Below are positions 3,631-25,853 of a stretch of DNA of 43,646 nt, in pieces. Made by a program: the position numbers and the translations under genes. A model generated the notes under the pieces. It was not told the DNA's origin. It was given only the letters and a program-made list of their open reading frames with translations, and made no database searches. The number at the start of each line of letters is the position of its first letter. The first letter of the stretch is position 1. This stretch comes from an uncultured Pseudomonadota bacterium (GTDB lineage: Bacteria > Pseudomonadota > Gammaproteobacteria > Competibacterales > Competibacteraceae). The stretch is from positions 1 through 43,646 of the forward strand of contig CAIMUS010000244.1 of NCBI GenBank assembly GCA_903844665.1, written 5' to 3'.

Positions 3631-3632
3631 GA

Positions 3633-5716: not shown

Positions 5717-5764
5717 TTTTTTCTTGATGCTTCCTGGAAGGGTGGCAAGAGCAGGGTCGTGCGC

Positions 5765-5905
5765 TCAGCCGGGTCCGAACGGAATGCCTAACGCATACCA
5801 GAGCACCAGCAGAACCGTCCAGACTACGATCAGGATCACCGCATAGGGCAACATCAGCGCGATGACAGTCCCGATACCCGCCTCCTTTTCTGTGTTGCGT
5901 TGGAC
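5765..5905 (-). pseudogene. C-terminal remnant of an AbgT-family transporter
   Basis: Reading the minus strand from 5905 gives about 46 codons that start after an in-frame TGA (5906-5908) and end at TGA 5765-5767. The peptide includes EKEAGIGTVIALMLPYAV, then a hydrophobic helix and the end ALGIPFGPG. This is the last helix and tail of AbgT-type p-aminobenzoyl-glutamate transporters (GIGTLI-LMLPY...LGLPLGPG). No start codon, no SD and nothing of the other ~450 residues is present, so it is a decayed fragment. It lies directly after the glutaminase-MFS-asparaginase operon on the same strand, suggesting the operon once ended with an amide-compound transporter. The identification rests on motif memory, not a search. 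Confidence 0.65.
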
Positions 5906-5962
5906 TCACTGCGCTCATTCGTAGGTTCTCCGCCGTGGTAATTCGTCGGCAAAGCAATACTC

Positions 5963-5988
5963 GGATGGGCGCCCGTAAGCGCCCATCC
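5963..5988 (-). terminator. Hairpin ending the glsA-MFS-asparaginase operon
   Basis: A perfect 10-bp stem (GGATGGGCGC 5963-5972 with GCGCCCATCC 5979-5988) with a 6-nt loop starts 14 bp after the asparaginase stop codon. On the minus strand it is followed by a moderately T-containing tract rather than a clean U-run, so termination may be partial. It separates the live operon from the AbgT remnant. Confidence 0.55.
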
Positions 5989-6002
5989 CTTTCTCGGCCC
6001 GC

Positions 6003-6986
6003 TTATTGATAAGGCGCGAACGCCGTCGCGACCTTGGCGGGGTCCCGGGTGGACCGCAGCACCAGCCCGAGCAGCAGGCGCGCTTTCAGCCCGGAGAGAT
6101 AACCGGCGGGCAGAACGCCGCGCTGGATCAGGTCGATTTCCGAGCCGGGATAGCCGTAGGTGCGCGTAAACACCGGGCCGGTCATCACTCGGCTGGCGAG
6201 CGCCACCGGCAGTTTTGCCGCCAGTTCGCCGACCATCGGCGCGACCTCCGCCGGCACATGGCCGGCGCCCATTCCCTCCAACACAACGCCGGCGTAGCCG
6301 AGGCCGGGCAGAGCGTCGAGCAGCCGGCCGTCATCGCCCATCGCAAACTTCACCAGCGCCACCGGCGCCGGCGGACCTTCCGCAGCCGAGAGGCTCGGGT
6401 TGCGCTGCACCCGCACGTAGAAGCGCGGACGCCGTTCGATCAGTGTGCCGAGCGGACCCACCAGCGGCGACAGGAACGCCGAGGGCAGCGCGGTGTGCGA
6501 CTTCTGCACAAAACGGGCCGCATGAATATCGTAGTTAAGGACCACGAGCGTCCCGAGACCGCGCGCCTCCGGCGAGGCGGCAACGATGGCCGCCGCCAGC
6601 AGATTGGCGGGTCCGTCCGCTCCCGGCGCGTCGGCGCCGCGCATCGCGCCCGTCACCACCACGGGTTTGTCGGAATCGACCAGCAGATCGAGCAGAAACG
6701 CCGACTCTTCGATGGTGTCGGTGCCCTGGATCACCACCGCGCCGTCGACATCGGCTGCAAACGCCTCGCCGATCACGCGCGCAACTTCGACCAGATTGGC
6801 CGGCTGCAGCGATGGGCTGGGCAGACGGAACGGCGAGCGCGCCTCGATGTCGCCGACCTCGGCGAGCGCCGGCACCGACGCCACCAACTCGGCGGCGCCG
6901 AGGGTAGGCGTAATGCCGCCCGAATCGCTCGGCGTCATGGTAATGGTCCCGCCGAGCGACAGGATCAAAAGACGGGGCTTGGTCAT
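6003..6986 (-). CDS. L-asparaginase
   Basis: A 327-residue hydrolase converting L-asparagine to aspartate and ammonia. The family signatures are clear. LSLGGTITM (residues 10-17) carries the first catalytic Thr (T14). VIQGTDTIEESAF (86-97) carries the second Thr-Asp pair (T89, D90). Next come VVVTGAMRGADAPGADGPANL and LNYDIHAARFVQKSHT. The C-terminal part (VVLEGMGAGHVPAEV) matches the smaller asparaginase domain. There is no signal peptide, so it is likely cytoplasmic; the length fits both type I and type II enzymes, and glutaminase side activity cannot be excluded. It starts 5 bp after the MFS stop codon, so it is the last gene of the glutaminase-MFS-asparaginase operon. Its product would complement glutaminase in amide nitrogen use. 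Confidence 0.92.
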   Translation of the reverse strand: MTKPRLLILSLGGTITMTPSDSGGITPTLGAAELVASVPALAEVGDIEARSPFRLPSPSLQPANLVEVARVIGEAFAADVDGAVVIQGTDTIEESAFLLDLLVDSDKPVVVTGAMRGADAPGADGPANLLAAAIVAASPEARGLGTLVVLNYDIHAARFVQKSHTALPSAFLSPLVGPLGTLIERRPRFYVRVQRNPSLSAAEGPPAPVALVKFAMGDDGRLLDALPGLGYAGVVLEGMGAGHVPAEVAPMVGELAAKLPVALASRVMTGPVFTRTYGYPGSEIDLIQRGVLPAGYLSGLKARLLLGLVLRSTRDPAKVATAFAPYQ

Positions 6987-6991
6987 GGGGG

Positions 6992-8653
6992 TTATGCTCC
7001 TTCCAGTGCGTCCTCACGCTTCGGCTTGGGTAGCGGCGGATTCGCCGGGATCTCGCCCGGCTTGTAGTCGGGCAGACGGCCGGCCGGGAAGACCGCCAGC
7101 AGTGACAGCGCAGCCATGATCAGGAGGCCGATCTTGAGCGCCCGAAGCCGTGCCTCCTCGTTGATGCGCACCGCTTCCTTGATCTGCTCGGGGGGGGCGT
7201 TGGTGCGCTCCAGGGCCGTCAGCAGCCGTTCGTTGCTCACGAAGGTGATGTTGTTGTCCAGGTCGATCTGGGACTGGAGTTCCGCTTTCAGTTCCGGGTG
7301 CTGGCCCAGCGACCCGAGGATGAAGGCGCTCAACAGGCCGACGAGCAGCGCACCCGCGACCGCGGTGCCGACGGCGGCGGCGAGGTTGTTGGTGGTCCCG
7401 CGCAGCGAGCCGACGTCGCCTGCCAGTTCCTTGGGCGAGGCGGTGACCAGCACGTTGAAGAGCAGCGTCACGAGCGAGCCCTGGCCGATGCCGAAGAGCA
7501 CGAGCCCGATCATGACGACCGGCGCGCTCCAGTTGTTGCGCACGACCCAGGCGAGCCACAGGAGCGCGATCATGCAGAGGACGAAGCCCCAGCGTCCAAT
7601 CTGCCGCGGCGTCAGCTTGTTGTAGAGCTTGATGATCAGCATCGCCGTGAAGAACACTGTGAGGTTGAACGGCATCATTGCGATCGCCGTCTCGATCGGC
7701 GTGCGGCCCTGGATGATCTGGATGTACAGCGGCACGGAGAAGTTGAGCGCGCCCTCCAGCGCGACGACGGCGAACATCGCGTAGACCGCCGCCCGCTCGG
7801 AGGCGGAGCCGACCACCTCCAGCGCGAGCAGCGGCGTCTTCCCGGCAGCCGTGCGCCGGCGCGTCCAGACCACGAAGGCCTGGAGCAGCACGATGCCGAT
7901 CACGATCATGAACGGCGCGGGCGACATGCCCAACAGTTCGAACGGCGCGGCGGGCTGCGCGAGACCGAGCCCCCACCGGTTCAGGTTATTGAAGCCGAAG
8001 CTGATGAAGATGATCGCCGCCGCCGTCAGCAGCACGCCGAACCGGTCGATCTGCACCTCGGGCCGGCCCTGAGCCGGCTTGAGCTTGAAACTCAGGAGGA
8101 AGACCACCACCGCAAGCGCGATCAGGATCCCAAACGCGGGCCGCCAGCCGATGTAGGTGCCCAGCACGCCGCCGATCAGGAAGGCCAACACACCGGCGCC
8201 CGCGCGCGCCGAACCGAGGGCGCCGAGCGCGGTGGCCTGCTGCTGGCCGTGGTACTCGTTCGCGATCAGCGCGACGAGCGAGGGGACCAGCGCCGCGCCC
8301 GCGATGCCGGACAGGAGCTGGGCTGTCAGCATGAGGGTGGCGGTTGGGCTGAAGGTCATCAACACCTGTGCCCCCCCGAACAGGATCACCACGGCGCGGA
8401 AAACGCGCACCGCGCCAAACCGCTGGGTCAACTTGGCGCCGAGCATGACGAAAGCCGCCACGGCGAGCGAGTACATCACGATCCCGGTGGCGACCGTGGT
8501 CGGCGGCACGTTGAAGCTGTGCACCATGCCGCTCAGCGCGACCGGCAGCGAGGCCACGTTAAAGGACATCAGCGCCTGGCCGAGCGCTATGGCGATCATC
8601 GGCACCCAGGATGCTTTCTCTTCGATCAGGGAAGTTGCGGTTGTTGCTGTCAT
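6992..8653 (-). CDS. MFS transporter, 14-TM DHA2-type
   Basis: A 553-residue major facilitator superfamily protein counted from MTATTATSLIEEKAS (ATG 8651-8653). An upstream ATG at 8707 would add 18 residues that look non-coding. Hydrophobic segments are spread over the whole length, consistent with 14 helices and drug:H+ antiporter (DHA2) architecture. The motif between helices 2 and 3 is seen as LGAKLTQRFGAVRVFR, and GIAGAALVPSLVALIANEY fits the antiporter region. The large loop near residues 455-510 is hydrophilic. Substrate unknown. Its place between glutaminase and asparaginase genes suggests export or exchange linked to amide or amino-acid metabolism, but this is inference. The C-terminal tail is basic/Pro-rich (PLPKPKRED). 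Confidence 0.88.
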   Translation of the reverse strand: MTATTATSLIEEKASWVPMIAIALGQALMSFNVASLPVALSGMVHSFNVPPTTVATGIVMYSLAVAAFVMLGAKLTQRFGAVRVFRAVVILFGGAQVLMTFSPTATLMLTAQLLSGIAGAALVPSLVALIANEYHGQQQATALGALGSARAGAGVLAFLIGGVLGTYIGWRPAFGILIALAVVVFLLSFKLKPAQGRPEVQIDRFGVLLTAAAIIFISFGFNNLNRWGLGLAQPAAPFELLGMSPAPFMIVIGIVLLQAFVVWTRRRTAAGKTPLLALEVVGSASERAAVYAMFAVVALEGALNFSVPLYIQIIQGRTPIETAIAMMPFNLTVFFTAMLIIKLYNKLTPRQIGRWGFVLCMIALLWLAWVVRNNWSAPVVMIGLVLFGIGQGSLVTLLFNVLVTASPKELAGDVGSLRGTTNNLAAAVGTAVAGALLVGLLSAFILGSLGQHPELKAELQSQIDLDNNITFVSNERLLTALERTNAPPEQIKEAVRINEEARLRALKIGLLIMAALSLLAVFPAGRLPDYKPGEIPANPPLPKPKREDALEGA

Positions 8654-8747
8654 AGTTTGCGCCTTTTTACGGTTGTTGTTCGAAATCGGTTGGACAAGAC
8701 CTCGCACCGCGACTGTAACGGGTGATCCCGGCGCGCGTCCGAAGCCG

Positions 8748-9749
8748 CTATTCCGGCTTCGATGCGAACAGGTTGAGCCCCAGGCACTCGGACAGATACT
8801 TGGTCACGCGCTGGCCCTTGATGCTGTTGCCGGCGCCGTCGAGCAGCGGGGAGAACGTGCCGAGCCCGCCCTTCCCCGGCGATACGGTGACGATCCCGCC
8901 GCTCACCCCGCTCTTGCCGGGCAGGCCGATCTCGTACAGCCAGTCGCCGGAGCGCTCGTACAGTCCGGCGGTTACCAGCACGGCGAGCACGCGCTTGGCG
9001 ATGGTGGCGTCGACCACGCGCTCCTTCGTGAGCGGATTCACGCCACCGTCGGCGAAGGTGGCGCCCATCACCGCGAGGTCCTTGACCGTCACGTTCAGCG
9101 AGCACTGTTTCGTGTAGACGTCGGTCGCCTCGAGGGCGTCGAAATATAGGCGGCCGTAGCCTTCAAGAAGCTTGGCGATGCCGCGGTTGCGCAAGTTCGT
9201 CGCCGCTTCCGACTCGTACACCTCCGCGTCGAGCGAGAGCTTGCGGCCCGCGAAGCGGGACAACCCGTCCTGAATGAACCGCCATTTGGCTTCGGCCGTC
9301 TCGCCCGGCGCCAGGCTGGTGGTGGCGATGGCCCCGGCATTCACCATCGGGTTCATGGTCCGATCCTCGTTCAGCTCGATCGCCATCACCGAGTTGAACG
9401 GCAGTCCCGTGGCATTCACCCCGATTTTCCTGCGCGCTTCCTCGCTGCCCACGGCCTGGCAAACGAGAGCGAACACGAACGGCTTCGACACACTCTGGAT
9501 CGAGAACTCATGTGCCGCGTCCCCCACGGAAAAGACGCCGCCTCCGGTCCCGACCACGCACACGCCGAACAGTTCGCGAGGCGTGCGGGCCAGGGCCGGG
9601 ATGTAGTCCGCGACTTTCCCTTCATCGAGGGACTTGTAGCGCTCGTACGCCGCGGCAACCAGTGCTGCGACCTCCTCGTCCGGCGGTAGATGGCCGGTCG
9701 AGACCCGGGAAAGTGCGGTCGCCTCATCGATCTCGAGTTGCGTGTACAT
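8748..9749 (-). CDS. glsA: Glutaminase
   Basis: A 333-residue serine-dependent beta-lactamase-like glutaminase (glutamine to glutamate plus ammonia). The catalytic SxxK pair is S86 and K89 in FSIQSVSKPFVFAL. The family strings GLPFNSVMAIE, NPMVNAGAIATTSL, NRGIAKLLEGYG, YTKQCSLNVTVKDLAVMGATFADGG and GKSGVSGGIVTVSPGKGGLGTFSP follow in order. It is slightly longer than the usual ~310 residues because of a ~20-residue N-terminal extension. The ATG at 9747-9749 has an AAGGA about 8 nt upstream and a strong sigma70 promoter behind it, so it is the first gene of the operon with the MFS transporter and asparaginase. Confidence 0.96.
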   Translation of the reverse strand: MYTQLEIDEATALSRVSTGHLPPDEEVAALVAAAYERYKSLDEGKVADYIPALARTPRELFGVCVVGTGGGVFSVGDAAHEFSIQSVSKPFVFALVCQAVGSEEARRKIGVNATGLPFNSVMAIELNEDRTMNPMVNAGAIATTSLAPGETAEAKWRFIQDGLSRFAGRKLSLDAEVYESEAATNLRNRGIAKLLEGYGRLYFDALEATDVYTKQCSLNVTVKDLAVMGATFADGGVNPLTKERVVDATIAKRVLAVLVTAGLYERSGDWLYEIGLPGKSGVSGGIVTVSPGKGGLGTFSPLLDGAGNSIKGQRVTKYLSECLGLNLFASKPE

Positions 9750-13727: not shown

Positions 13728-14148
13728 ATGAGCCTGGCGATGAGCAACCAATTTATCCCCATAGAACGTGACCAGCCGGTGGTGATCCCGGTGCAGGAGT
13801 GGCTGGCAGAGGATCATCTGGCGCGCTTCATTGTCGAGATCGTGGAGAGTCTGGATGTCACCCCGCTGGAAGCGGCGTACCGTGGTGGCGGCTCGGCGCC
13901 CTATCCACCGAAGATGATGCTGGCGCTGTTGTTTTATGGCTATGCCACTGGCATCTTCTCCAGCCGGGCGTTGGAGCAGGCCACCTATGAACTGATCCCG
14001 GTGATCTATATCACCGGTAACACCCACCCGGATCATAACAGCATCAATACGTTCCGGAAGCGGTTTCTGGGGGAACTGAAGGGCGTGTTTGTGCAGATTT
14101 TGCTGCGGGCGTATGCGCTGGGGGTGTTGCAGTTAGGCAAGCTGACTG
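13728..14148 (+). mobile_element. IS1182-type transposase, N-terminal fragment
   Basis: The first ~140 codons match the N-terminal part of IS1182-family transposases: VQEWLAEDHLARFIVEIVE, then [44 protein letters not shown] and [19 protein letters not shown]. Full enzymes have about 450-550 residues and continue with a DGT motif of the DDE domain right here. Instead, the sequence switches at about 14144-14150 to unrelated DNA that codes, in another frame, for a glycosyltransferase tail. The frame continues nominally to 14312, but those residues are nonsense. The element is inactive. Confidence 0.85.
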
Positions 14149-14383
14149 CCCTTGCGTTGCGACGGACTGCCCGAGTGGCCCCAGCGAGATTCTCGACGAA
14201 GGGCGCTATGGCCGATTGGCGCCGGTGGGCGATGCCGCCATGGCCGACGCGATCGTTCAGTCGCTCGACGCCCCACCGGATCGAGAGCACCTTCCCTGGG
14301 GTATCCACTTAAGCCGGGACACCTTAGCCAGTTGTAGGGTGGGCAGCTTGTCTGCCCACGCCGGTTGTCTGGGTAAAAGCTAA
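14147..14383 (+). pseudogene. C-terminal remnant of a GT4-type glycosyltransferase
   Basis: In the frame reading GAC at 14165-14167, the codons give [20 protein letters not shown], then [26 protein letters not shown]. This is the donor-binding end of group 1/GT4 glycosyltransferases ([24 protein letters not shown]). It begins exactly where the IS1182 transposase sequence stops and runs into a REP-like repeat at 14335, reaching a stop at 14381-14383. Only ~55 recognisable residues of an expected ~370 remain, so it is a pseudogene fragment left by recombination or IS-mediated deletion. Confidence 0.68.
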
Positions 14384-14426: not shown

Positions 14427-14879
14427 TTAGAACAAGGGGTTGGGATTGACCGTAAACTTCACGCCGCCGCCGCCAATGGAGATTTGGGCGCCTTGCGTAT
14501 CGGTGCTGAGCCTGAGCTCGACACCTTTTCCATTCTTCAGGACGGTATCGCCGCCACCGGCCAGAATCGTCATATTGGCGCCGGCGCCCGCATAGGTACC
14601 GTCGAAATCTGACAGATTCTTAAGGTTATAGACCTTGCCCTTGCCCATGATGCTGGAGAAGCCGACCCCTCCCAGGGACAGGCCGTCCGCCTTAATGGGA
14701 TAGACTTTGCCTTGATAGGTCAGCGTGCCACTACCCCAGCTAAAGCCCACGCCCAAAGCGGCGGAGTTCGCCATGAACTCGATAGTTCCATCGGGTTGCT
14801 CCTCGGCGGCAAAGGCAAAAACACCGACCAGGCTTAAGCTTAATACAGTGACCAGATTGATGATGATGCGACGCATCAA
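14427..14879 (-). CDS. Small exported protein, paralogue of the lipoprotein at 32-523
   Basis: A 150-residue protein with a Sec signal peptide (residues ~1-25, ending VFAFAAEE). The mature domain is glycine-rich and probably all-beta: TYQGKVYPIKADGLSLGGVG, GKVYNLKNLSDFDGTYAGAG and GAQISIGGGGVKFTV. Position by position it follows the same plan as the lipoprotein at the start of the window, but without a lipobox, so this copy would be free in the periplasm. A distant likeness to DUF1134/YSC84-like proteins is possible. Function unknown. It is transcribed toward the REP-like repeat at 14335. Confidence 0.75.
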   Translation of the reverse strand: MMRRIIINLVTVLSLSLVGVFAFAAEEQPDGTIEFMANSAALGVGFSWGSGTLTYQGKVYPIKADGLSLGGVGFSSIMGKGKVYNLKNLSDFDGTYAGAGANMTILAGGGDTVLKNGKGVELRLSTDTQGAQISIGGGGVKFTVNPNPLF

Positions 14880-15292: not shown

Positions 15293-15315
15293 TTTTCTTT
15301 ATCATTTCGTGCCAA
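15293..15315 (-). promoter_or_regulatory. Third copy of the AraC-region motif, inverted, over the araC stop
   Basis: TTTATCATTTCGTGCCAA near 15298-15315 is the inverse of the two motif copies upstream of araC, with the same GGCACGAAATGATAAAGAAA core. It includes the TGA stop codon of araC (15302-15304). It could be a remote loop-forming site or the far end of a transposed unit. Confidence 0.5.
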
Positions 15316-16369
15316 GCGCGACAGGATACCGGCCCGCCGACGGGGTGGAGAGGGAAAAATCACCAAGCGCCCATTGGCGACGAAACTGAAGGGGCGAAAC
15401 CCCGGTCCAGCGCCGGAAGGCGCGGGAGAAATTGGCCAGTTCGGTATAGCCCAGTTCGATGGCAATTTCGAGCAGGGGGCGATGCGGCTCTGCCAGCAAC
15501 TGCATCGCCTTCTCGAAGCGGACCTGTTCGACCAGCCGGGAATACGTGAGGTTGGAGGCGGCCAGCCAGCGCTGAAACGTACGAATGCTCACGCCGGCCA
15601 CTTGCGCTGCCAATCCGATATCAGGATATTGTTCCCGTAGCAGCAGGCCAAGTACCTGTCGAACCGAACCGATAAGATCGCCGGCCGGCGCCGAGGCCCA
15701 TAAGTCGGTCTCCATTTCGGAGAGCGCCACCGGCCGCTCGATCCGTTTCTCCAGCGGCAGACTTAACAGGCTTTTTGGAAAAAACAGGGCGGTCGCTTCC
15801 TGGTTGAAAGCCAGTTCGACACCGGCCAGTGGCTCGATCTGGTCCAATCCCGGCGCCGGCTCTGTCTCGAAATGAACCTTCCGGGGTCGCCAGTTCGCTC
15901 CGGCGCCTAAACGGATGAGTTGCAGCAAGCACATGAAGACATAATGATCCGCCTGCTGGCGGCCACGCTCGAGCCCCGCCACATAGCGATGGCACAGTTG
16001 CGCCTGTTCACCTTGAACGTTGAGCCAGATACGCTCGCCCGTATTATGAGCGGCCACCAGCCGGCAGGTTGTGGTGATCGCTTCATAGAGCGTCAGTGAT
16101 CCGCAGATCAAGCGACCAAAGGCGCCCAAGTCTTCGAGCCGTGCCCGTTGCCCGGCGTGCAGGCCGAATAGTGCGATCCCCTGAGAGCGTGCGGCCCGTT
16201 CCAGCAAGTAACAACCCTGGTGCAAGGGGATCAAGCCCTCGGGCTGGTCGCAGGCCGCCATCGGCAGCTTCGCCGCATTCATAAGTCGCTGCACGGGCGC
16301 GCCGATCTCCTGGAGCAAGGCCACGCACGGCAGGAGCGTGCTCACGCGAACCAGCGGTATCGGTCTCAT
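15302..16369 (-). CDS. AraC-family transcriptional regulator
   Basis: A 355-residue regulator. Residues ~20-205 match the N-terminal effector domain found in OruR/Arabinose_bd-type AraC regulators (LLPCVALLQEIGAPVQRLM...). Residues ~245-340 form the double helix-turn-helix: DIGLAAQVAGVSIRTFQRWL, then the second helix pair ending IAIELGYTELANFSRAFRRW and GVSPLQFRRQW. It is divergently transcribed from the OmpA-like lipoprotein gene at 16743, whose downstream neighbours are the sulfatase cluster. Copies of a conserved ~20-bp motif lie in the divergent region and over its own stop codon, so it probably controls itself and the cluster. Effector unknown. Confidence 0.93.
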   Translation of the reverse strand: MRPIPLVRVSTLLPCVALLQEIGAPVQRLMNAAKLPMAACDQPEGLIPLHQGCYLLERAARSQGIALFGLHAGQRARLEDLGAFGRLICGSLTLYEAITTTCRLVAAHNTGERIWLNVQGEQAQLCHRYVAGLERGRQQADHYVFMCLLQLIRLGAGANWRPRKVHFETEPAPGLDQIEPLAGVELAFNQEATALFFPKSLLSLPLEKRIERPVALSEMETDLWASAPAGDLIGSVRQVLGLLLREQYPDIGLAAQVAGVSIRTFQRWLAASNLTYSRLVEQVRFEKAMQLLAEPHRPLLEIAIELGYTELANFSRAFRRWTGVSPLQFRRQWALGDFSLSTPSAGRYPVALGTK

Positions 16370-16742: not shown

Positions 16743-17303
16743 ATGATGAACCTACTGAAAAGAGAACTGCTAGCGACGTCTCTGTCCGCACTCCTGCTGC
16801 TGGTGGGATGCGTACCGCAATCCCAGTATAACCAGGAGGCTCAACTGGCGGCCACCTATCGGCAGCTCGACCAGAGCCTGCAAGCGGAGGTCAACAATGA
16901 CCAGGCCGAGATCACGCAGTTGCAGGGCGAACTGAAGGTCACGCTCCTGAATGAAATCCTGTTCCCCGAGGGGGGCTGGCAGCTCCACCGGCAGGGCGAG
17001 CAGACACTCAACAAGATTGTGCCCACGCTGAGGAACCTGACGCAGACGCAGATTGTGGTGGATGGCTACACGGATAACCTGCCGATCGGACCGGAGCTTA
17101 AGGCCCGGTTCCCCTCGAACTGGCAACTGTCGGCGGCGCGCGCCACGGGTGTGGTCCAGTACCTGCAATCACAAGGGGTCAACCCCAATCTGATGTCGGC
17201 CCAAGGTTTCGGGGACACGCACCCGGTCGCCTCCAACGACACGCCGCAGGGCCGGGCGAAAAACCGACGGATCGAGATCACCCTGCGGGGCCCGGGTAAT
17301 TAG
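16743..17303 (+). CDS. OmpA-like lipoprotein
   Basis: A 186-residue protein from MMNLLKRELLATSLSALLL; the ATG at 16743 has GAGGAG 7 nt upstream, and the longer frame from 16680 is rejected. The lipobox ends LLVGC (about residue 20), so it is a lipid-anchored envelope protein. A short coiled region (YRQLDQSLQAEVNNDQAEITQLQGEL) is followed by an OmpA C-terminal peptidoglycan-binding domain, residues ~75-184: VDGYTDNLPIGPELKARFPSN, WQLSAARATGVVQYLQSQGV and GRAKNRRIEITL. The NRR(I/V) end and the Asp/Arg residues that bind diaminopimelate are kept. It is the first plus-strand gene after araC, and a likely partner or anchor for the sulfatase cluster downstream. Confidence 0.88.
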   Translation: MMNLLKRELLATSLSALLLLVGCVPQSQYNQEAQLAATYRQLDQSLQAEVNNDQAEITQLQGELKVTLLNEILFPEGGWQLHRQGEQTLNKIVPTLRNLTQTQIVVDGYTDNLPIGPELKARFPSNWQLSAARATGVVQYLQSQGVNPNLMSAQGFGDTHPVASNDTPQGRAKNRRIEITLRGPGN

Positions 17304-17333
17304 CGCCACCGCGTGGCCTGAGCGTCATAGAGT

Positions 17334-17367
17334 AGCGGCGAGTCGATCCGGGCGGCGGCTCGCCGCT
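17334..17367 (+). terminator. Hairpin after the OmpA-like gene
   Basis: A perfect 9-bp stem (AGCGGCGAG 17334-17342 with CTCGCCGCT 17359-17367) starts 30 bp after the lipoprotein stop. It lacks a U-run, so it is at best an attenuating or RNA-processing hairpin before the sulfatase gene. Confidence 0.35.
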
Positions 17368-17479
17368 GTGAGCCTCGGTGCATCGATCTCCCGGTCGAAT
17401 CGCTTAAGTTCAGTAGCTATCGTAAAGTTACCTTAATAACAGTTCATCCACGACCAGCCAAACTGAGGAGATTTTAATC

Positions 17480-20236
17480 ATGATAAGTGCTTTGTTCTCG
17501 AAATCGCCCTTCACCACGGGGCTCAAGATTTCCTGCTCAGCCTTGGCCCTGGCGGCCTGTCTGGCTGCCGGCGGCGCCCAGGCCGCCGACAAGGGACCGC
17601 GCCAACACGCGCGGGGCCAGTACGACACCGTCACCGCCACCTATTTGGTGGTCGAGGGCGACGATCTGGTCGCGATCAGCGAGCGCTTCGAGATTCCCGT
17701 GGACTTGCTGAAGCAGCAGAACAAGCTGGCCTCGAACGAGATCGAGGTTGGCCGGAAGCTGATAGTGGCCACCAGCGCGGCCGAAGGGGGACCGGCCGGC
17801 GCCCCGCAAATCACCGGCGTACCCGGTTCCCCAAGCGCGACGACGACGATCAGCGGCGAGCAGTTGCCGCCGCTGCCTGAAAAATTCGGTGGCAAGATCG
17901 AGCGCAATGCCGCGCAGTCGACGCCGTATTGGCCGCCGCGCGTCGAACCGCCCAAGGGTGCGCCCAATGTGCTGCTGATCATGACCGACGATTCCGGTTT
18001 CGGCGTCCCCAGCACCTTCGGCGGCGTGATTCCGACCCCGGCGCTCGACCGAATCGCCGCCAACGGCCTGCGCTACACCAACTTCAACTCCACGGCGCTG
18101 TGTTCGCCGACCCGCGCGGCGATCATCACCGGGCGCAACCACCATTCGGCGGGCTTCGGCGTGGTTGCGGAACAGGCGACCGGCTTCCCAGGCTACGACT
18201 CGGTCATCACCCGCGACAAGGCGACGATCGGCCGCATCCTCAAGGATAACGGTTACCGCACGTCGTGGTTCGGCAAGGATCACAATACGCCGGTCTATCA
18301 GGCGAGCCAGGACGGGCCGTTCGATCAATGGCCGATCGGCATGGGTTTCGAGTATTTCTACGGTTTCATCGGTGGTGACGCGAACCAGTGGCAGCCGAAC
18401 CTGTTCCGGAACACGACCGCGATCTACCCGTATGTCGGCAACCCGAAGTGGAACCTGATCACGGCGCAGGCAGATGACGCTATCACCTACATGAGACGCA
18501 TCAACGCGCTCAACTCGGAGCAGCCGTGGTTCATCTATTATGTCCCCGGCGGCACCCACGCGCCGCACCACCCGACGCCGGAATGGATCAAGAAGATCAG
18601 CGACCTGCACCTGTTCGACAAGGGCTGGAACGCGCTGCGCGGGCAGATCTTCGAGAACCAGAAGAAGCTGGGTGTGATTCCGCCGGACGCCAAGCTCACG
18701 CCGTGGCCGGACGATCTACTGAAGAAATGGGACCAACTCACCGCCGATGAGAAGAAAATGTTCCTCCGCCAAGTGGACGTCTTCGCCGCTTACGTGGCCT
18801 ACACCGACCACGAGATCGGGCGCGTGATCCAGGCGGTCGAGAACCAGGGCAAGCTCGACAACACGCTGATCATCTACATCAACGGCGATAACGGCACCAG
18901 CTCCGAGGGTACGCTGGTCGGCACACCGAACGAGGTCGCGATGTTCAACGGCGTCGTGGTGCCGGTCGAGGACCAACTCAAGTACTTCTACGACGTCTGG
19001 GGTTCGGACCAAACCTACCCCCACATGGCGGTGCCATGGGCGTGGGCGCTCGACACGCCGTTCTCCTGGACCAAGCAGATCGCCTCGCACTTCGGCGGCA
19101 CGCGCCAGGGGATGGCGATTTCCTGGCCGAAGCGAATCACGGATAAGGGTGGTATTCGCAACCAGTTTCATCACGTGATCGACATCGTGCCGACGATCCT
19201 CGAAGCCACGAGCATTCCCGCGCCGAAAGTGGTCGATGGCATTCCGCAGAGCCCGATCGAGGGCGTGAGTATGGTCTACACCTTCGATAAGGCCAATGCC
19301 AACACGCCATCGGCGCACAAGACGCAGTATTTCGAGATGATGGGCGACCATGCCATCTACCACGAGGGCTGGATCGCCAGCACGAAGGTCATGCGTCCGC
19401 CGTGGGATGTGCTCGGCCCGACCAGCCAGGATCCGGCCGGATTCCCCTGGGAGCTGTACGATCTTACCAAGGACTGGACGCAATTCGAGAACGTTGCCGA
19501 CAAGTACCCGGCGAAGCTCAAGGAACTGCAGGACCTGTTCTGGGCTGAGGCGGAAAAGTACCAGGTCCTGCCGCTGGATGCGTCGGTCGCGACCCGGCTT
19601 GTCATGCCGCGGCCCAGCCTCACGGCCGGCCGCAACGAGTTCACCTGGTCCGGCGAGCTCACCGGCACGCCGAACGGCGATGCGCCTTTCATTCTCGACT
19701 CGTCATACCACTTCAAGGCGGAAGTGGAGATCCCGCAGGGCGGCGCCGAAGGCATGATCGTGACCCAGGGTGGGCGCTTCGGCGGCTACGGCTTCTATCT
19801 GCTGAAGGGCCAGCCGGTATTCCTCTGGAACCTGGTCGATCTGAAGCGGATTCGCTGGGAAGGCCCCGAGGCGCTGTCACCCGGCAAGCACACGCTGGAA
19901 TTCGACTTCAAGTACGACGGCCTGGGGATTGCCACGCTCGCCTTCAACAACATCAGCGGCATCGGTCGGTCTGGCACGGGTGTGCTGAAGGTGGACGGCA
20001 AGGAGGTCGCCACCCAGAAGATGGAGCGCACGCTGCCGCTGATCCTACAATGGGATGAGAACTTCGATGTCGGCGCCGACACCGGTACCCCGGTGGATGA
20101 CAAGGATTATCAGGTGCCGTTCAAGTTCACCGGCACGCTCGACAAGCTGACGCTGACGATCGATCGGCCGAAGTTGACGCCGGAAGATGAGAAGAAGCTG
20201 ATGGAGGCAACGCGGAACAACAAGGCGAGTGAGTAA
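17480..20236 (+). CDS. LysM-arylsulfatase fusion, exported
   Basis: A 918-residue protein. A signal peptide (residues ~1-36, ending AQAADKG) is followed by a LysM domain at about 52-98 (TYLVVEGDDLVAISERFEIP...LASNEIEVGRKLIV). Then comes a type I sulfatase domain: PNVLLIMTDDSGFG has metal-binding D170 and D171, and the formylglycine motif CSPTR is at 208-212 with C208 as the residue to be oxidised. GRNHHSAGFG, GYRTSWFGKDHN and GDNGTSSEGTL continue the active site. Residues ~715-900 form a beta-rich C-terminal domain. It should hydrolyse sulfate esters while held at peptidoglycan by LysM. C208 needs a formylglycine-generating enzyme or anSME, which is not in this window. The ATG has GAGGAG upstream. 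It leads a six-gene plus-strand set; substrate unknown. Confidence 0.93.
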   Translation: MISALFSKSPFTTGLKISCSALALAACLAAGGAQAADKGPRQHARGQYDTVTATYLVVEGDDLVAISERFEIPVDLLKQQNKLASNEIEVGRKLIVATSAAEGGPAGAPQITGVPGSPSATTTISGEQLPPLPEKFGGKIERNAAQSTPYWPPRVEPPKGAPNVLLIMTDDSGFGVPSTFGGVIPTPALDRIAANGLRYTNFNSTALCSPTRAAIITGRNHHSAGFGVVAEQATGFPGYDSVITRDKATIGRILKDNGYRTSWFGKDHNTPVYQASQDGPFDQWPIGMGFEYFYGFIGGDANQWQPNLFRNTTAIYPYVGNPKWNLITAQADDAITYMRRINALNSEQPWFIYYVPGGTHAPHHPTPEWIKKISDLHLFDKGWNALRGQIFENQKKLGVIPPDAKLTPWPDDLLKKWDQLTADEKKMFLRQVDVFAAYVAYTDHEIGRVIQAVENQGKLDNTLIIYINGDNGTSSEGTLVGTPNEVAMFNGVVVPVEDQLKYFYDVWGSDQTYPHMAVPWAWALDTPFSWTKQIASHFGGTRQGMAISWPKRITDKGGIRNQFHHVIDIVPTILEATSIPAPKVVDGIPQSPIEGVSMVYTFDKANANTPSAHKTQYFEMMGDHAIYHEGWIASTKVMRPPWDVLGPTSQDPAGFPWELYDLTKDWTQFENVADKYPAKLKELQDLFWAEAEKYQVLPLDASVATRLVMPRPSLTAGRNEFTWSGELTGTPNGDAPFILDSSYHFKAEVEIPQGGAEGMIVTQGGRFGGYGFYLLKGQPVFLWNLVDLKRIRWEGPEALSPGKHTLEFDFKYDGLGIATLAFNNISGIGRSGTGVLKVDGKEVATQKMERTLPLILQWDENFDVGADTGTPVDDKDYQVPFKFTGTLDKLTLTIDRPKLTPEDEKKLMEATRNNKASE

Positions 20237-20360
20237 CCGCATCGGCAATCCCGGGCAGCCCCGTGTGGGGCTGCCTGCACCAGCGGGCGCCAGAGGCAGC
20301 GAACGGTCCCGCAGTGCATAAAACTTCGTTTCGTTTGCAATCTGAATGAGGAGACAGTTG

Positions 20361-21248
20361 ATGATCCAGTACCAAGTCATCGGGCGCGCCGTGTTGCTCG
20401 CCGCCGGCGTGTTCCTGGCGGCGGGCGTGAACGCCCAGCAGCCACAAGCCGCGCCAAAGGCCTCGGAGCCGGCCCAGCCGCCGGGCAAAGAGGCGGCGCC
20501 GGCGGTCAAGCCGGTGCTCGAACCCAAGGCCCTCGACCTGCTGAAGGCGATGAGCGACCGCCTCGCGGCGGCGAAATCGCTGTCGTTCACGGCCTTGTCC
20601 ACTTACGAGCACCCCAGTCGCATCGGCCCCGCGCTGGCCTACACCACGCTCTCCGAGGTGCTCATGGAGCGGCCGAACAAGCTGCGGGTGATCACGGCCG
20701 GCGACGGCCCGGCATCGGAGTTCTACTACGACGGCAAGACGATAATGGCTTACTCGCCGGCTGAAAATCTGGTCGCCGTCGCCGAGGCGCCGCCGACGAT
20801 CGACGCCATGCTCAAGGCCGCGTTCGACAACGCCGGGATTTACTTCCCGTTCACCGACGTGATCGTCGCCGACCCTTACAAGGACATCGCCGAGGGCCTG
20901 GTCCACGCTTTTTACATCGGCCAATCCAAGGTAATCGGCGGCACGGTGACGGACATGGTGGCGTATGCCGACAATGACGTATTCGTGCAAATCTGGATCG
21001 GCGCCGAGGACAAATTGCCGCGGCTGGTGCGGGCGGTATATCGCGCCGACAAACTGCGGCTGCGCCACCAGGTGGAGCTTTCCAACTGGAAGCTCAACCC
21101 GCCGGCGGCGGCGGAGGCGTTCGCGTCGTCGAAAGCCAGCGCGGCCAAACGGATTGCCTTCAGCCATCCGGCGGCGCCTCCGCTGGGTTCGAAGCCACCT
21201 GCGGCGCAGGACAAGCCATCCGAACCGCCGCCTCCCAAATCGAAGTAA
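20361..21248 (+). CDS. DUF2092 exported protein
   Basis: A 295-residue protein from MIQYQVIGRAVLLAAG; ATG 20361 has GAGGAG (20348-20353) at 7 nt, better than ATG 20346. The signal peptide ends near VNAQQ. A Pro/Ala-rich linker follows, then the DUF2092 domain (residues ~60-250): ALDLLKAMSDRLAAAKSLSF, RPNKLRVITAGDGPASEFYYDGKTIMAYSP and WIGAEDKLPRLVRAVYR. This resembles the LolA/LolB half-barrel style (outer-membrane lipoprotein carrier fold), so binding of a hydrophobic ligand is plausible. The C-terminus is Pro/Lys-rich. It lies 125 bp after the sulfatase and 10 bp before the Gly-rich protein, within the same gene set. Confidence 0.85.
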   Translation: MIQYQVIGRAVLLAAGVFLAAGVNAQQPQAAPKASEPAQPPGKEAAPAVKPVLEPKALDLLKAMSDRLAAAKSLSFTALSTYEHPSRIGPALAYTTLSEVLMERPNKLRVITAGDGPASEFYYDGKTIMAYSPAENLVAVAEAPPTIDAMLKAAFDNAGIYFPFTDVIVADPYKDIAEGLVHAFYIGQSKVIGGTVTDMVAYADNDVFVQIWIGAEDKLPRLVRAVYRADKLRLRHQVELSNWKLNPPAAAEAFASSKASAAKRIAFSHPAAPPLGSKPPAAQDKPSEPPPPKSK

Positions 21249-21258
21249 GGAGTCAGTC

Positions 21259-21900
21259 ATGAACAGAATCGTCATTATCCTTGCAGGTCTGATCATCACG
21301 ATGTCCCTGCCTGGACCGGCCGTGGCCTGGTCGCACGCGAACCGCTGGGGAGGCGACACCTCCCACAGCTATGGGTCCGGGTCCACAACGCGGACCGACG
21401 CCTGGGGCGGCAGCGAGACCCACAGCTACGGAGAGGGCACGACGGCGACCGGCCGCTACGGCGACACCGCGACGCACGAGGAAGGGTCGGGACAAACTTC
21501 CTTCACCAACCCTTATGGTGGCAGCGCCACGCATACCTACGGCGAAGGCACGAGTTGGAACAGCGCCGCCGGCGGCACGTACCACACCAGCCCCTACTAC
21601 GGCGGGGGCTACCATCCGTACTATCCGCCCGCCACCGTTAACTACTACGGCTCCGGTTGCGGCAACTGCGGCGGCTGGCCGGCGGGAGCCGCTGCCGCCG
21701 GCGCGGCGGTCGGCATGGCCGCCGGCGCGGCCGTCGGCGCGGCCAGCGCCGAGTATGCGATGGGTGCGAACTACGCGACGCTACCTCCCGGCTGCGTCTC
21801 GCCCGGCGGCGCGGGCGTGTACTACCAGTGCGGCAGTGCGTGGCTCAGGCCGGTCTACGGCGCCAACGGCGTCTACTACCAGGTCGTGCCAGCGCCCTAG
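21259..21900 (+). CDS. Gly/Tyr/His-rich exported repeat protein
   Basis: A 213-residue protein starting at the ATG preceded by AAGGAG. The signal peptide ends at AVAWSHA. The mature N-half has degenerate repeats of about 20 residues with the core GGS-THSYGEGTT (GDTSHSYGSGSTTRTDAWGG, GSETHSYGEGTTATGRYGD, GSATHTYGEGTSWNS). A Tyr/Pro-rich stretch follows (YYGGGYHPYYPPATVNYYGSG), then an Ala/Gly-rich hydrophobic segment (AAAAGAAVGMAAGAAVGAAS) that may insert in membrane. Four Cys occur in the C-half, two of them as CGNC. It ends VYYQVVPAP. The composition suggests a surface or cell-wall structural protein. It follows the DUF2092 gene by 10 bp. Confidence 0.8.
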   Translation: MNRIVIILAGLIITMSLPGPAVAWSHANRWGGDTSHSYGSGSTTRTDAWGGSETHSYGEGTTATGRYGDTATHEEGSGQTSFTNPYGGSATHTYGEGTSWNSAAGGTYHTSPYYGGGYHPYYPPATVNYYGSGCGNCGGWPAGAAAAGAAVGMAAGAAVGAASAEYAMGANYATLPPGCVSPGGAGVYYQCGSAWLRPVYGANGVYYQVVPAP

Positions 21901-22015
21901 TCGTGCCTGCCGACGAGCATGACCCAGGGGGGTCGCTCCGACGCAGTAACCGCCCGGCGGGACTTAGTGACCGCCGGGTCTACAACTCATCACCTTAAAC
22001 CAGAGAGACCGACAA

Positions 22016-22585
22016 ATGACGACAAGACGTAATTTCATCGCCGCCGCGGCGTTGATGGGCGCGGTTGCCTCCCTGACCTCCAGTCTGTTTTTGGCAGAGG
22101 CCAAGGAGGAGAAGGCAAAGGAAAAGGTTCAGCTCATGTTCGTGCAGACGGCTGACGACCTGAAGGCCGACGACAAGACCTTGCGGCTGGTCAATGTCGG
22201 CAAGCAAACGCTGTATTTCTCGGATCGGCCGGTGCGTATTGCCGGGCATCTCACGATGCCGGCTTATCTGGATGAATGGAAAGCGGGCGAAGGCCCGGAC
22301 AATTTCGCCAGTGACCCGCCCAATGCCACACTGTCGGTCTATGAAGGTGGTAAGGCCGAAAACACGCTTACCGTGGTCGAGATCAGTCATCCGGTCATCG
22401 AGGGGAATGACCTGGTCTACAACTACAAGCTGATCGAGGGCACGATGCCCAAGGCCGGTGGGGCAACCGCGTTGTTCATCGATTGGGTCGGTGCGGGCGG
22501 TGGTGTTGGCGCCGGTTTTCACGGCGTCGGGGCCGGTACCCGAGGGGTTGGCCTTCACGGTGGTTACGGTGGGCCAGCAAGATGA
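22016..22585 (+). CDS. Small exported protein with Tat-like signal, function unknown
   Basis: A 189-residue protein whose N-terminus TTRRNFIAAAALMGAVASL carries a twin-arginine motif and a hydrophobic core, so Tat export is likely, possibly folded or cofactor-loaded. After a Lys/Glu-rich linker, the domain (residues ~38-150) reads VQLMFVQTADDLKADDKTLRLV, YFSDRPVRIAGHL, PNATLSVYEGGKAENT and TVVEISHPVIEGNDLVYNYKL, probably a beta-sandwich. The last 30 residues are Gly-rich with spaced His (GAGFHGVGAGTRGVGLHGGYG), which could bind metal. A very similar plan occurs in proteins found beside DUF1254/sulfatase genes in other bacteria, as I recall; no formal family is assigned. Part of the sulfatase gene set. 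Confidence 0.75.
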   Translation: MTTRRNFIAAAALMGAVASLTSSLFLAEAKEEKAKEKVQLMFVQTADDLKADDKTLRLVNVGKQTLYFSDRPVRIAGHLTMPAYLDEWKAGEGPDNFASDPPNATLSVYEGGKAENTLTVVEISHPVIEGNDLVYNYKLIEGTMPKAGGATALFIDWVGAGGGVGAGFHGVGAGTRGVGLHGGYGGPAR

Positions 22586-22631
22586 ACACGCTGCAACCGT
22601 TCACTCCCCCTCCTAGGGAGTGCCGAAACCG

Positions 22632-23504
22632 ATGGATAATTGGTATCAGACATTAAGACTTGCCGGGCTTGGGCTGGCTACCACCGGTCTGCTATTAGCG
22701 TGGGATGGTGTTTTGGCCGACGAGCCTGTACCTACCGAATCCGGCCTCGATAAGCCGGTTCCCGGCGCCGTCAACGACGCCACCCGGACGGTGGGTCGCC
22801 TGGATCTGCGCGAGCGGTACGAGCGACTCCCGGACGCCAAAGGCTTGCAGCCGGCGAAATGGGTGACCACGCTACGCACCGACCTGTGGACCGGCCTCGG
22901 CGACGGCTGGAAGCTCTACGGGCGCCTGGACCAGCCGCTCGTCGATTCCCACGATGTGACCAGTTCCTTCAACCCCAATGGCCACAGCCGGTTCGGGCAG
23001 GGCGATCTCTTGACGGAGGCGGCGATCCTCTCTCCCGCGCTGACTGCGGGGATCGGCTATGAGTTGGGCATCCGAGCCGTGTGGCCGACCGGCAGTTTAA
23101 ACGAGGCGGGAGACGGCAAATACCAAGTTGGACCCGTTGTCGGTGCGGGTTTCAATCTGCCGCAAATCAGTTCGGGAAGCTCTTTTCTGTTGCAGGTGAT
23201 TTATCTCAACAGCGTCGCCAGCCGCGACGAAAACAAGGGACGGGCGGACATCAATCAGTTGAACCTCCAGCCGCAACTCCACGTCGTCCTGCCGAAGGAA
23301 TGGTTCCTGACCACCTATTCAAGCGAAAACATCATCAAAAACTATGGCAACGAGGGGAAATGGTTTGTCCCCTTCGATTTGATGGTCGGCAAGAAAATCG
23401 ATAAGTTCGTAGGGTCACTCGAATTTTCTCGACAGATCTTTCATAGCCAGGATTTCCAGCCCTATCAATGGCAACTTGAAGGGCGGATCGGCTATTACTT
23501 TTAA
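22632..23504 (+). CDS. Outer-membrane beta-barrel protein
   Basis: A 290-residue protein from MDNWYQTLRLAGLGLATTG; AGGGAG lies 11 nt upstream, and a GTG at 22620 is the alternative start. The signal peptide ends near VLADEP. The mature chain has repeated amphipathic strands (WVTTLRTDLWTGLGDGWKLYGRLD, LTAGIGYELGIRAVWPTG, YQVGPVVGAGFNL, SFLLQVIYLNS, LNLQPQLHVVL) and ends with the aromatic IGYYF typical of barrel proteins assembled by BAM. It resembles the transporter-like barrels (MetA/neuromedin U-annotated family) seen in phenol or sulfatase clusters. A pore for the substrate of the neighbouring enzymes is inferred. It sits between the Tat-like protein gene and the LysM-DUF1254 gene, 15 bp ahead of the latter. 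Confidence 0.8.
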   Translation: MDNWYQTLRLAGLGLATTGLLLAWDGVLADEPVPTESGLDKPVPGAVNDATRTVGRLDLRERYERLPDAKGLQPAKWVTTLRTDLWTGLGDGWKLYGRLDQPLVDSHDVTSSFNPNGHSRFGQGDLLTEAAILSPALTAGIGYELGIRAVWPTGSLNEAGDGKYQVGPVVGAGFNLPQISSGSSFLLQVIYLNSVASRDENKGRADINQLNLQPQLHVVLPKEWFLTTYSSENIIKNYGNEGKWFVPFDLMVGKKIDKFVGSLEFSRQIFHSQDFQPYQWQLEGRIGYYF

Positions 23505-23519
23505 CTCGGAGAAACGGCA

Positions 23520-25241
23520 ATGAGAAGAGTCATCCAGCAGTACGGCCTAGCCCTTGCGGTCCTGGCCTGTTTCGTTTTCGGCAGCGTCCAGGCCGCCGAT
23601 AAGGGGTCGCGCCACCATGCACGGGGTGAATACGATACCGTCACCGCGACCTATGTGGTGCTCGAAGGTGATGATCTGTTCGCCGTCAGCGAACGCTTCG
23701 AGATTCCCGTCGAGGACCTGAAGGCGCAGAACCAACTCAGCTCGAACGAGATCAAGCCCGGCCAGAAACTGGTCGTTGGAACCGCCAGCGCCGGAGGCTC
23801 ACCCCCGGCGAAGCCGTACAAGATGACCACGCCCATTCCGGCGAGCATCCCCATGCCGGACCGGCTCGACACGCGCTTCGGCACGCTGAATTTCTTCGAC
23901 GGCGTCCCGGATCAGGCTTCGACCGAAAAGCTCTACGACAATCTGGACTTCCAACGCGCCGTGCAGGCATACCTGCTCGGTCTGCCCGCGGTGAGCCAGT
24001 GGGCCAACCGGAAGGGATTTGTCGAGTGGGGGCCGGCCAATTCGACGGTGCCGATCTTTGAAACCCTGATGAACGCCAGGACGCTGGAACTGACGGCGAA
24101 CAACAACACGCCGTACACTTGGATCTGGCTCGATCTGCGCAATGGTCCGCTGGTCCTCGAGGTGCCCCCGAAAGTGCTCGGGGCGATCGACGACATGTGG
24201 TATCACTGGGTAAGCGATGTCGGCATCACCGGACCGGACAAGGGTCAGGGCGGGAAATATCTGCTACTGCCACCGGGTTACAAGGGCGAGGTGCCGGACG
24301 GCTACCACGTCGTCCACTGTACGACGTTCAGTGTCTGGATCCCGTGGCGCAGCTTCCTGGTGGACGGCGACCCGAAGCCCGGCGTGGGCCTGGTGAAGAA
24401 GTTCACCAAGCTCTACCCGCTGTCTCAAGCCGGAAATCCGCCAACGCCGACCTTCGTGAACGTTTCCAACAAGGCGTTCAACACGATCGCCCCGGCGGAT
24501 TACTCCTTCTGGGAGGCGCTCAATCAGGTCGTGCAGGAAGAACCCACCGACCCGATCGACCCGACTACGCTCGGTTTCTGGGCGTCGGTGGGCATCCAGA
24601 AAGGCAAGTCCTTCGCGCCCGACGCGCGGATGAAGAAGATCCTGACCGAAGCTGCCCGGGTGGGTGACGCCACGGCGCGCGCTATCATGTACCGCTGGCG
24701 GACACCGGACGGGTACTGGTACCCGAACAGCGCCTGGCGCCTCGGCTTCATTGGCGGCTACCAGTTCGAGGACAACGGCGCCCGTCTGCTGGATGCCTAC
24801 TCCGGCTTCTTCTTCTACGCCACGGGTGTCACGCCGGCCATGGATACCAAGGCGGTCGGCGTCGGGTCGCAGTACATGGCCGCGTTCGTCGATTCCAAAG
24901 GCCATCCCTTCGACGGCGGAAAAAATTATCGGTTACACCTGCCGCCCAATATCCCGGTCAAGGACTTCTGGTCGGTGATCCTTTACGACAGCCAGACGCG
25001 CTCGATGCTGCAGACCGATCAGGACTGGCCGGCGGTCAGCAGCCAGACCCAGGGACTGCTGGTGAATGCGGACGGGTCGGTGGATGTCTATTTCGGCCCG
25101 ACGGCTCCAGCCGGCAAGGAGAATAACTGGATCCAGACCCTTCCCGGCAAGAGCTGGAACACACTTTTGCGTCTCTACGGCCCGCTGGAGCCGTGGTTCA
25201 ACAAGACCTGGCGGCCGGGTGAAATCGAGCCGCTGCCCTAG
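23520..25241 (+). CDS. LysM-DUF1254/DUF1214 exported protein
   Basis: A 573-residue protein. Signal peptide (residues ~1-25), then a LysM domain at about 38-84 (TYVVLEGDDLFAVSERFEIP...LSSNEIKPGQKLVV). Next are DUF1254 (~120-300, FGTLNFFDGVPDQASTEKLYD, FQRAVQAYLLGLPAVSQW) and DUF1214 (~430-570, YRLHLPPNIPVKDFWSVILYD, VYFGPTAPAGKENNWIQTLPG). The DUF1254-DUF1214 pair is widespread and its biochemical role is unsettled. The leader and LysM part nearly duplicate those of the arylsulfatase at 17480 (shared ARG-YDTVTATY-V-EGDDL---SERFEIPV), so both proteins are placed in the same wall layer. It is the last gene of the cluster. Confidence 0.9.
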   Translation: MRRVIQQYGLALAVLACFVFGSVQAADKGSRHHARGEYDTVTATYVVLEGDDLFAVSERFEIPVEDLKAQNQLSSNEIKPGQKLVVGTASAGGSPPAKPYKMTTPIPASIPMPDRLDTRFGTLNFFDGVPDQASTEKLYDNLDFQRAVQAYLLGLPAVSQWANRKGFVEWGPANSTVPIFETLMNARTLELTANNNTPYTWIWLDLRNGPLVLEVPPKVLGAIDDMWYHWVSDVGITGPDKGQGGKYLLLPPGYKGEVPDGYHVVHCTTFSVWIPWRSFLVDGDPKPGVGLVKKFTKLYPLSQAGNPPTPTFVNVSNKAFNTIAPADYSFWEALNQVVQEEPTDPIDPTTLGFWASVGIQKGKSFAPDARMKKILTEAARVGDATARAIMYRWRTPDGYWYPNSAWRLGFIGGYQFEDNGARLLDAYSGFFFYATGVTPAMDTKAVGVGSQYMAAFVDSKGHPFDGGKNYRLHLPPNIPVKDFWSVILYDSQTRSMLQTDQDWPAVSSQTQGLLVNADGSVDVYFGPTAPAGKENNWIQTLPGKSWNTLLRLYGPLEPWFNKTWRPGEIEPLP

Positions 25242-25285: not shown

Positions 25286-25564
25286 GTGGAATTCGAGTGG
25301 GATTCCGACAAAGCGGACATAAATCTGCGCAAACATTATGTCAGCTTTGAGGATGCCGCCCGAGTGTTCCTGGACCCGAATCGCATCGAAACCTTCGATA
25401 ATCGGGAAGCCTACGGTGAAGATCGCTGGAAAACCGTGGGACTGGTTGAATCCGCCTTGTTGGCGGTCGTCTACACCGTTCGCGGGAAAGACGATGACAT
25501 CATCCGATTGATTTCAGCGAGAAAGGCAGATGCTCATGAGCGCGCGCAATACCGTGAAGTTTAA
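25286..25564 (+). CDS. brnT: BrnT-family RNase toxin
   Basis: A 92-residue protein starting with GTG, of the usual BrnT length. BrnT toxins are RelE-like ribonucleases that stop translation. The family pattern is complete: FEWDSDKADINLRKHYVSFEDA, the central RIETFDNREAYGEDRWKTVGLVE, the strand LLAVVYTVRG and the catalytic end IIRLISARKADAHERAQY. The R-x5-A-R-K-A--E-R-x-Y residues are the RNase site. It overlaps brnA by 29 bp, the classic toxin-first order of this system. The palindrome upstream suggests autoregulation. Confidence 0.95.
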   Translation: MEFEWDSDKADINLRKHYVSFEDAARVFLDPNRIETFDNREAYGEDRWKTVGLVESALLAVVYTVRGKDDDIIRLISARKADAHERAQYREV

Positions 25565-25853
25565 ACTTGACCCGGAAAATTTCCCGCCACTGACCGATGA
25601 GCAGCGTAAGCGGCTGAAGGAAGTCGAGGCCATGCCGGATGTGGAAATTGACTACAGTGATATCCCGCGCCAAACCGGAACCGTGCAATGGACACGACCG
25701 GGTGCGTTAGTTCCTGCTAAAAGCAAGCAGCAGGTTACGTTGCGCCTGGATGCGGATGTGCTGAACTTCTTCAAGGGCACCGGCAAACGCTACCAGAGCC
25801 GCATCAATGCTGTGCTGCGCGAGTACATAAATGCGCACAGGAAAACTGTGTGA
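25536..25853 (+). CDS. brnA: BrnA-family antitoxin
   Basis: A 105-residue antitoxin starting inside brnT (ATG 25536; ATG 25530 would add two residues). The N-half binds the toxin (FKLDPENFPPLTDEQRKRL, DVEIDYSDIP), and the C-half is a ribbon-helix-helix DNA-binding domain: KQQVTLRLDADVLNFFKGTG, YQSRINAVLREYINAHRK. BrnA neutralises BrnT and represses the operon with it. A small hairpin (CCAACG 25861-25866 with CGTTGG 25870-25875) follows the stop codon. Confidence 0.94.
   Translation: MSARNTVKFKLDPENFPPLTDEQRKRLKEVEAMPDVEIDYSDIPRQTGTVQWTRPGALVPAKSKQQVTLRLDADVLNFFKGTGKRYQSRINAVLREYINAHRKTV

Follow-up and report, generated by a model that had tools for sequence, protein, structure and literature searches.

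A candidate AraC-linked envelope gene set whose sulfatase and DUF1254/DUF1214 protein share a LysM tag

Results

A 43,646-nucleotide stretch of DNA from an uncultured Pseudomonadota bacterium (contig CAIMUS010000244.1, family Competibacteraceae; the whole stretch is called the window here) carries at 16743-25241 a seven-gene block that encodes exported proteins, beside a divergent gene for an AraC-type regulator. On its sequence, the block is tentatively read as an AraC-linked periplasmic set for scavenging, which would desulfate esters at the sacculus and pass the products on; we consider this possible, though somewhat short of an even chance. The results suggest that an envelope gene set recurs among bacteria, with the block as one version of it, and that it encodes an enzyme team hitherto undescribed as a unit. 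The reading is put forward because the protein families were confirmed, the S1 catalytic pattern is intact, and a 67-residue LysM tag is restricted to three enzyme types in one bacterial family. It is also put forward because the gene company recurs, with association across the phylum and linkage above chance, because a maturase, a SulP permease, a FadL porin and an OmpA paralog lie with the genome's other sulfatases, and because an FGE gene adjoins a rhizobial sulfatase. The seven open reading frames (ORFs) are present as the first-pass annotation had described them; all lie on the + strand and are free of frame problems, and they are listed with the regulator and the two tag copies.

15302-16369, - strand: AraC-type regulator with an Arabinose_bd N-terminus (Pfam 4.8e-28; HTH_18 3.1e-21)
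16743-17303, + strand: OmpA-domain lipoprotein (lipobox LVGC, Cys at 16809-16811; Pfam OmpA 1.5e-19)
17480-20236, + strand: LysM-tagged S1 formylglycine sulfatase, 918 residues (Pfam Sulfatase 1.7e-52, LysM 3.6e-8)
17585-17785, + strand: 67-residue LysM tag, copy 1, in the sulfatase (tag search)
20361-21248, + strand: DUF2092 (LolA-like) exported protein (Pfam 1.1e-59; start chosen from sequence)
21259-21900, + strand: Gly/Tyr-rich exported DUF2092 partner (C-terminal LPPGC...YYQCG motif)
22016-22585, + strand: Tat-like exported protein, predicted beta-rich (orthologs adjoin sulfatase or DUF1254 genes)
22632-23504, + strand: probable small barrel of the outer membrane, divergent within a 'transporter' family (relatives by profile in DUF1254/DUF2092 loci)
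23520-25241, + strand: LysM-tagged DUF1254/DUF1214 protein (Pfam 1.2e-26 and 3.6e-33, LysM 4.3e-10)
23595-23792, + strand: 67-residue LysM tag, copy 2, in the DUF1254 protein (71% identity with copy 1)

The C-x-P-x-R motif of the sulfatase is present as CSPTR (ALCSPTRAAIITG; Cys208, codon 18101-18103). When solved structures were searched by sequence, the sulfatase core aligned with the P. aeruginosa arylsulfatase structures (5e-49), and the residues kept in the alignment with 4cxk are a DD pair, CSPTR, GKxH, a DN pair and a late Lys, which correspond to the metal and sulfate ligands. The catalytic roles of these residues are established for the S1 family. The catalytic pattern of an S1 formylglycine sulfatase is intact in the window protein, and hydrolysis of sulfate esters is predicted. 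The top-scoring solved relatives were broad arylsulfatases, with steryl-sulfatase far behind.

Only four sulfatase-domain genes are present in the whole genome, and the remaining three lie together on contig C103. A maturase gene, named earlier as something to look for elsewhere in the genome, was found on that contig: a radical SAM protein encoded there scores 485 bits with the anaerobic sulfatase maturase model, whose cut-off is 349. Contig C103 also encodes a paralog (352 bits) of the window OmpA lipoprotein, whose own OmpA domain scored 70.6 bits against a cut-off of 27.2 and which also has the lipobox LVGC. Beside the other sulfatases lie genes for a FadL/TodX porin, a SulP sulfate permease and a TAXI-like binding protein. 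FGE-sulfatase domains are unusually abundant in the genome (35 places, many within long proteins). The domain is not specific for sulfatase maturation, and the count of 35 matches was dropped for that reason as a sign of it.

The tag follows directly after the signal region and ends in a LysM domain (consensus ADxGpRhHAxGqYD....Y.VVeGDDLxAIaERFgv.v..LK..NkL.S..IexGQkL). The LysM domains of both window proteins scored above the Pfam cut-off (33.7 and 39.8 bits against 20.9). Placement of the two proteins at the cell wall, as first proposed, is backed by this domain and by the shared tag, and binding is predicted. The tag was searched alone in 59 relatives and in the window's genome at a threshold of at least 48 bits, and carriers were classed by their downstream domain, with a Pfam check on representatives. 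This gave 40 copies in 15 genomes of 7 genera, all in the window's family. The 38 classifiable carriers comprise 16 long sulfatases, 6 short sulfatases, 15 DUF1254/1214 proteins of three kinds and 1 DUF3604 protein, whose domain opens with FGETHLHT...S.D, which we take to be a PHP-like motif. The confinement of the tag to sulfatases, DUF1254 and DUF3604 among classifiable carriers is circumstantial evidence that these proteins act in one place, perhaps in one pathway. One of the two unclassified carriers ends at a contig edge and the other is a broken copy running into Tat-like sequence. At L057:10579-10866 a broken tag reads straight into a Tat-like fragment, a hint of past fusion or rearrangement.

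Outside the family, the best match in the sampled phylum genomes reached 33.4 bits, fell mostly on the LysM part and was not at any of the sulfatase or DUF1254 loci located in that sample, even though sulfatases 74-75% identical exist in those genomes. Within the family the tag is optional, and several long sulfatases and DUF1254 proteins lack it. In a tree of the tag (67 columns, poorly resolved), the 'long sulfatase' label must have changed at least 5 times along well-supported branches, which indicates that tags moved between catalytic types. Mean tag identity of same-genome pairs of different type was 61%, against 58%, and the median was 58% for both; genome-wide homogenisation of the tags (concerted evolution) was rejected, since these pairs are not clearly closer. 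The comparison is in favour of occasional transfers between enzyme types over homogenisation within genomes.

Each of the domains named in the first-pass annotation (OmpA, LysM-sulfatase, DUF2092, LysM-DUF1254) was matched in Pfam; the Gly/Tyr protein and the barrel had no match in that search. DUF1254 and DUF1214 both scored above cut-off in the window protein (93.9 and 114.9 bits), as did DUF2092 (201.9 bits against 21.2). DUF2092 has been tied to LolA through remote homology (PMC4520260); the LolA likeness ascribed earlier to the window protein agrees with that assignment, and a lipid-binding cavity is predicted. A sequence search of solved structures returned no DUF2092 relative. The genome's second DUF2092, of another subfamily, has a partner matching DUF6515 (L081, contig C256, about 300-9700).

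Besides its repeat, the Gly/Tyr protein carries a C-terminal LPxGC...YYxCGxxW motif. In many genomes a relative of it immediately follows DUF2092, and in rhizobia the partner starts at the DUF2092 gene end. The surface location once given to this protein found no support; it is a recurrent downstream partner of DUF2092.

The Tat-like protein (22016-22585) matched the Pfam TAT-signal model weakly and just passed the NCBIfam one. Its signal, TRRNFI, is not conserved: an 84% identical ortholog has TKRK, others have TKHK or TQRF, and the twin-arginine RR is missing in at least 3 of 8 orthologs. Tat export, which had been proposed for the protein, is doubtful because the motif is not kept. A beta-rich fold is predicted, and a fold search of the model against solved structures gave no match at E <= 0.001. 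A motif, G[RM]PLTP[LM]SxAGxxRR, is common to rhizobial DUF2092-partner proteins and some Tat-like proteins, near their C-termini (partner ORFs of L016-L024, e.g. L022:10687-11016; L046:6569-7111; L052:2035-2673; L058:8121-8675); a role as a signal for sorting or for interaction is conceivable.

At 18-24% identity, the barrel diverges from the other members of a family present in these clusters. The outer-membrane pore first proposed gains support from its relatives, one of which, in rhizobia, is annotated 'transporter', while 2 of the 8 aligned match Pfam Phenol_MetA_deg weakly, below cut-off. The window protein itself lends it none, having no match to Phenol_MetA_deg and an AlphaFold model that is strand-rich but poor (mean predicted local distance difference test score 46).

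Co-occurrence beyond this genome, on which the case for a joint system had been made to depend, was found: the same families are grouped in several genera of the window's family, and in Alphaproteobacteria as well, with varying order and membership. The locus survey covered 18 loci of the family or order with a long sulfatase (window included, some ending at contig edges) at a radius of 11 kb. Neighbours within that radius were DUF1254 (11 loci), the Gly/Tyr partner (11), DUF2092 (10), the Tat-like protein (9), AraC (6), the barrel (4) and OmpA (1, the window). A CusF/DUF1344-like protein was also present in 9 of the 18. Elsewhere, DUF1254, OmpA and Tat-like genes stand consecutively on R. ruizarguesonis pRlX2, and in a metagenome-assembled genome of Desulfarculales Mla genes come after a group made up of sulfatase, DUF2092, Gly/Tyr partner and Phenol_MetA_deg porin genes.

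In a phylum sample of 298 genomes besides the window's, DUF1254 occurred in 57 genomes, including 17 of the 17 with a long sulfatase (p 7e-14 by Fisher tests, which ignore shared ancestry); DUF2092 occurred in 6 of these 17 (p 5e-6), and DUF1254 and DUF2092 were themselves associated (p 8e-6). Physical linkage, likewise uncorrected for kinship, exceeded expectation: DUF1254 lay within 10 kb of 4 of 24 sulfatase genes (0.25 expected, p 1e-4) and of 3 of 13 DUF2092 genes (0.16 expected, p 6e-4).

Several observations weigh against the desulfating set proposed here, the neglect of shared ancestry in these tests among them. DUF1254 was within 11 kb in only 11 of the 18 sulfatase loci, some of them contig-cut, and the window alone has OmpA next to the sulfatase. 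In other organisms the long sulfatase or plain 'arylsulfatase' is often solitary; the latter belongs to the same protein family, so that sulfatase linkage is frequent and not obligatory. A sulfate-ester ABC transporter or importer was absent among the seven genes, the only ones scanned gene by gene.

Within the block, the likelier start codons are 20361 for DUF2092 (AGGAG upstream) and 22632 for the barrel. The intergenic gaps, in gene order, are 176, 124, 10, 115, 46 and 15 bases, leaving two tight sub-groups, DUF2092-Gly/Tyr and Tat-like-barrel-DUF1254. Promoter and terminator pattern scans of the block gave results no better than shuffled sequence. The block was not marked by composition as clearly foreign DNA (G+C 62% against 57-61%). 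The nearest NCBIfam model to the AraC protein is QhpR, at a score below cut-off.

Left of the block is a truncated or frame-broken transposase (DUF772; 13728-14312), and directly after it are a BrnT toxin (92 residues, 7.4e-27) and a BrnA antitoxin (4.6e-20) at 25286-25853. Downstream of the AraC gene an EipA-like exported protein is encoded (14427-14879, minus strand; below the Pfam cut-off). In L008, L051, L053, L054 and L064 its relatives are neighbours of a DUF1254 or sulfatase gene, and a close paralog (275 bits) lies on contig C256.

Discussion

In the mechanism proposed, the AraC-type activator, from its position, probably regulates the block. The small outer-membrane barrel would admit the substrate. 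The sulfatase and the DUF1254/1214 protein, which share the tag, would be held on peptidoglycan through LysM, and the formylglycine sulfatase, whose motif is present, would cleave sulfate off an ester in the periplasm. DUF2092, with its LolA-like hydrophobic pocket, and the Gly/Tyr partner may hold or ferry a hydrophobic moiety of substrate or product. The anaerobic maturase encoded on contig C103 would activate the window sulfatase, and freed sulfate could enter via the SulP permease encoded there. Taken together, these steps would strip sulfate esters of their sulfate at the sacculus, as a form of scavenging. Part of the joint envelope system in the first-pass annotation is supported, by the co-occurrence, the maturase, the LysM domain and the LolA likeness; Tat export and a surface repeat protein are not.

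Alternatively, the set could answer osmotic or envelope stress by remodelling polymers of the envelope, such as substituted periplasmic glucans, lipids or a sulfated exopolymer made by the cell; the sulfatase would then act on a product of the cell itself and not on food. Genes for MscS-type channels, a potassium channel and adenylate cyclase beside the rhizobial versions, an MscS gene in one locus of the window's family, and the envelope character of the OmpA, EipA-like and LysM proteins speak for this. The window block has no channel gene, however, and the SulP permease with the genome's other sulfatases fits scavenging; we regard such remodelling as rather doubtful.

Unlikely, by our estimate, is a role in the catabolism of hydrophobic compounds such as sulfated lipids, sterols or aromatics, with entry through a barrel or FadL, LolA-like carriage, desulfation and onward transport. 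It would account for the FadL/TodX porin adjoining the other sulfatases, the Phenol_MetA_deg porin and Mla genes of the Desulfarculales version, and the LolA-like pocket of DUF2092 (PMC4520260), but ring-opening and beta-oxidation genes are absent among the seven, and, among solved structures, the sulfatase comes closest to broad arylsulfatases and not to steryl-sulfatase. That the genes are mere neighbours in a gene island, as the flanking transposase remnant and BrnT/BrnA pair and the differing gene content between genomes might suggest, is distinctly improbable given that the same families reunite in another class in a different order, that unrelated proteins share one tag, and that association extends across the phylum.

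The desulfating set at the sacculus can be extended to a more speculative proposal, to which we give little weight: one bacterial family would use a LysM tag as a dedicated address, handed on repeatedly among three unrelated enzyme-type families (formylglycine sulfatases, DUF1254/1214 and DUF3604 proteins), to assemble a multi-enzyme processing zone on the Gram-negative sacculus, fed by the barrel and the LolA-like carrier with its Gly/Tyr partner. The roles of DUF1254, DUF1214, DUF2092 and DUF3604 are unsettled, with almost nothing on them in the literature searched, and the 67-residue tag is a short testable fragment.

Comparison with known systems

Sulfatase loci as such are already known (e.g. 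PMC4053727). The combination of sulfatase and DUF1254 with DUF2092 and its partner, the Tat-like protein and the barrel had no description in the literature searched, and within that literature the shared, shuffled LysM tag also appears undescribed. In Sinorhizobium medicae, sulfatase and transport genes are grouped in clusters proposed for organic sulfur use (PMC4053727); these carry ABC transporters, which are absent among the seven genes here, and the DUF genes go unmentioned in the text of that paper.

With the P. aeruginosa arylsulfatase (PDB 1hdh, 4cxk) the window sulfatase has the catalytic motif and core fold in common by alignment, and differs in having a signal peptide, the LysM tag and, at the C-terminus, a further domain of ~220 residues. 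The Vibrio parahaemolyticus protein VPA0735 (PDB 2p3y, 3vb9), a DUF1254/1214 protein that its depositors named 'hypothetical' or 'uncharacterized', aligns over the whole core with the window protein (2.7e-79 for 2p3y), but has no LysM match.

Two rhizobial loci resemble the block. Ensifer canadensis pT173d carries, in ~11 kb, AraC, DUF2092, Gly/Tyr partner, MscS, AraC, Tat-like, DUF1254 and barrel genes, that is, five of the seven plus AraC; the MscS channel is extra, whereas sulfatase, OmpA and LysM tag were not found there. Rhizobium leguminosarum pRle248d shares with the window a 64% identical sulfatase, DUF2092, DUF1254 and the barrel; it has no tag, and DUF3604 and an FGE gene adjoining the sulfatase are extra. 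Ensifer and Rhizobium are cultivable relatives with an untagged version of the set.

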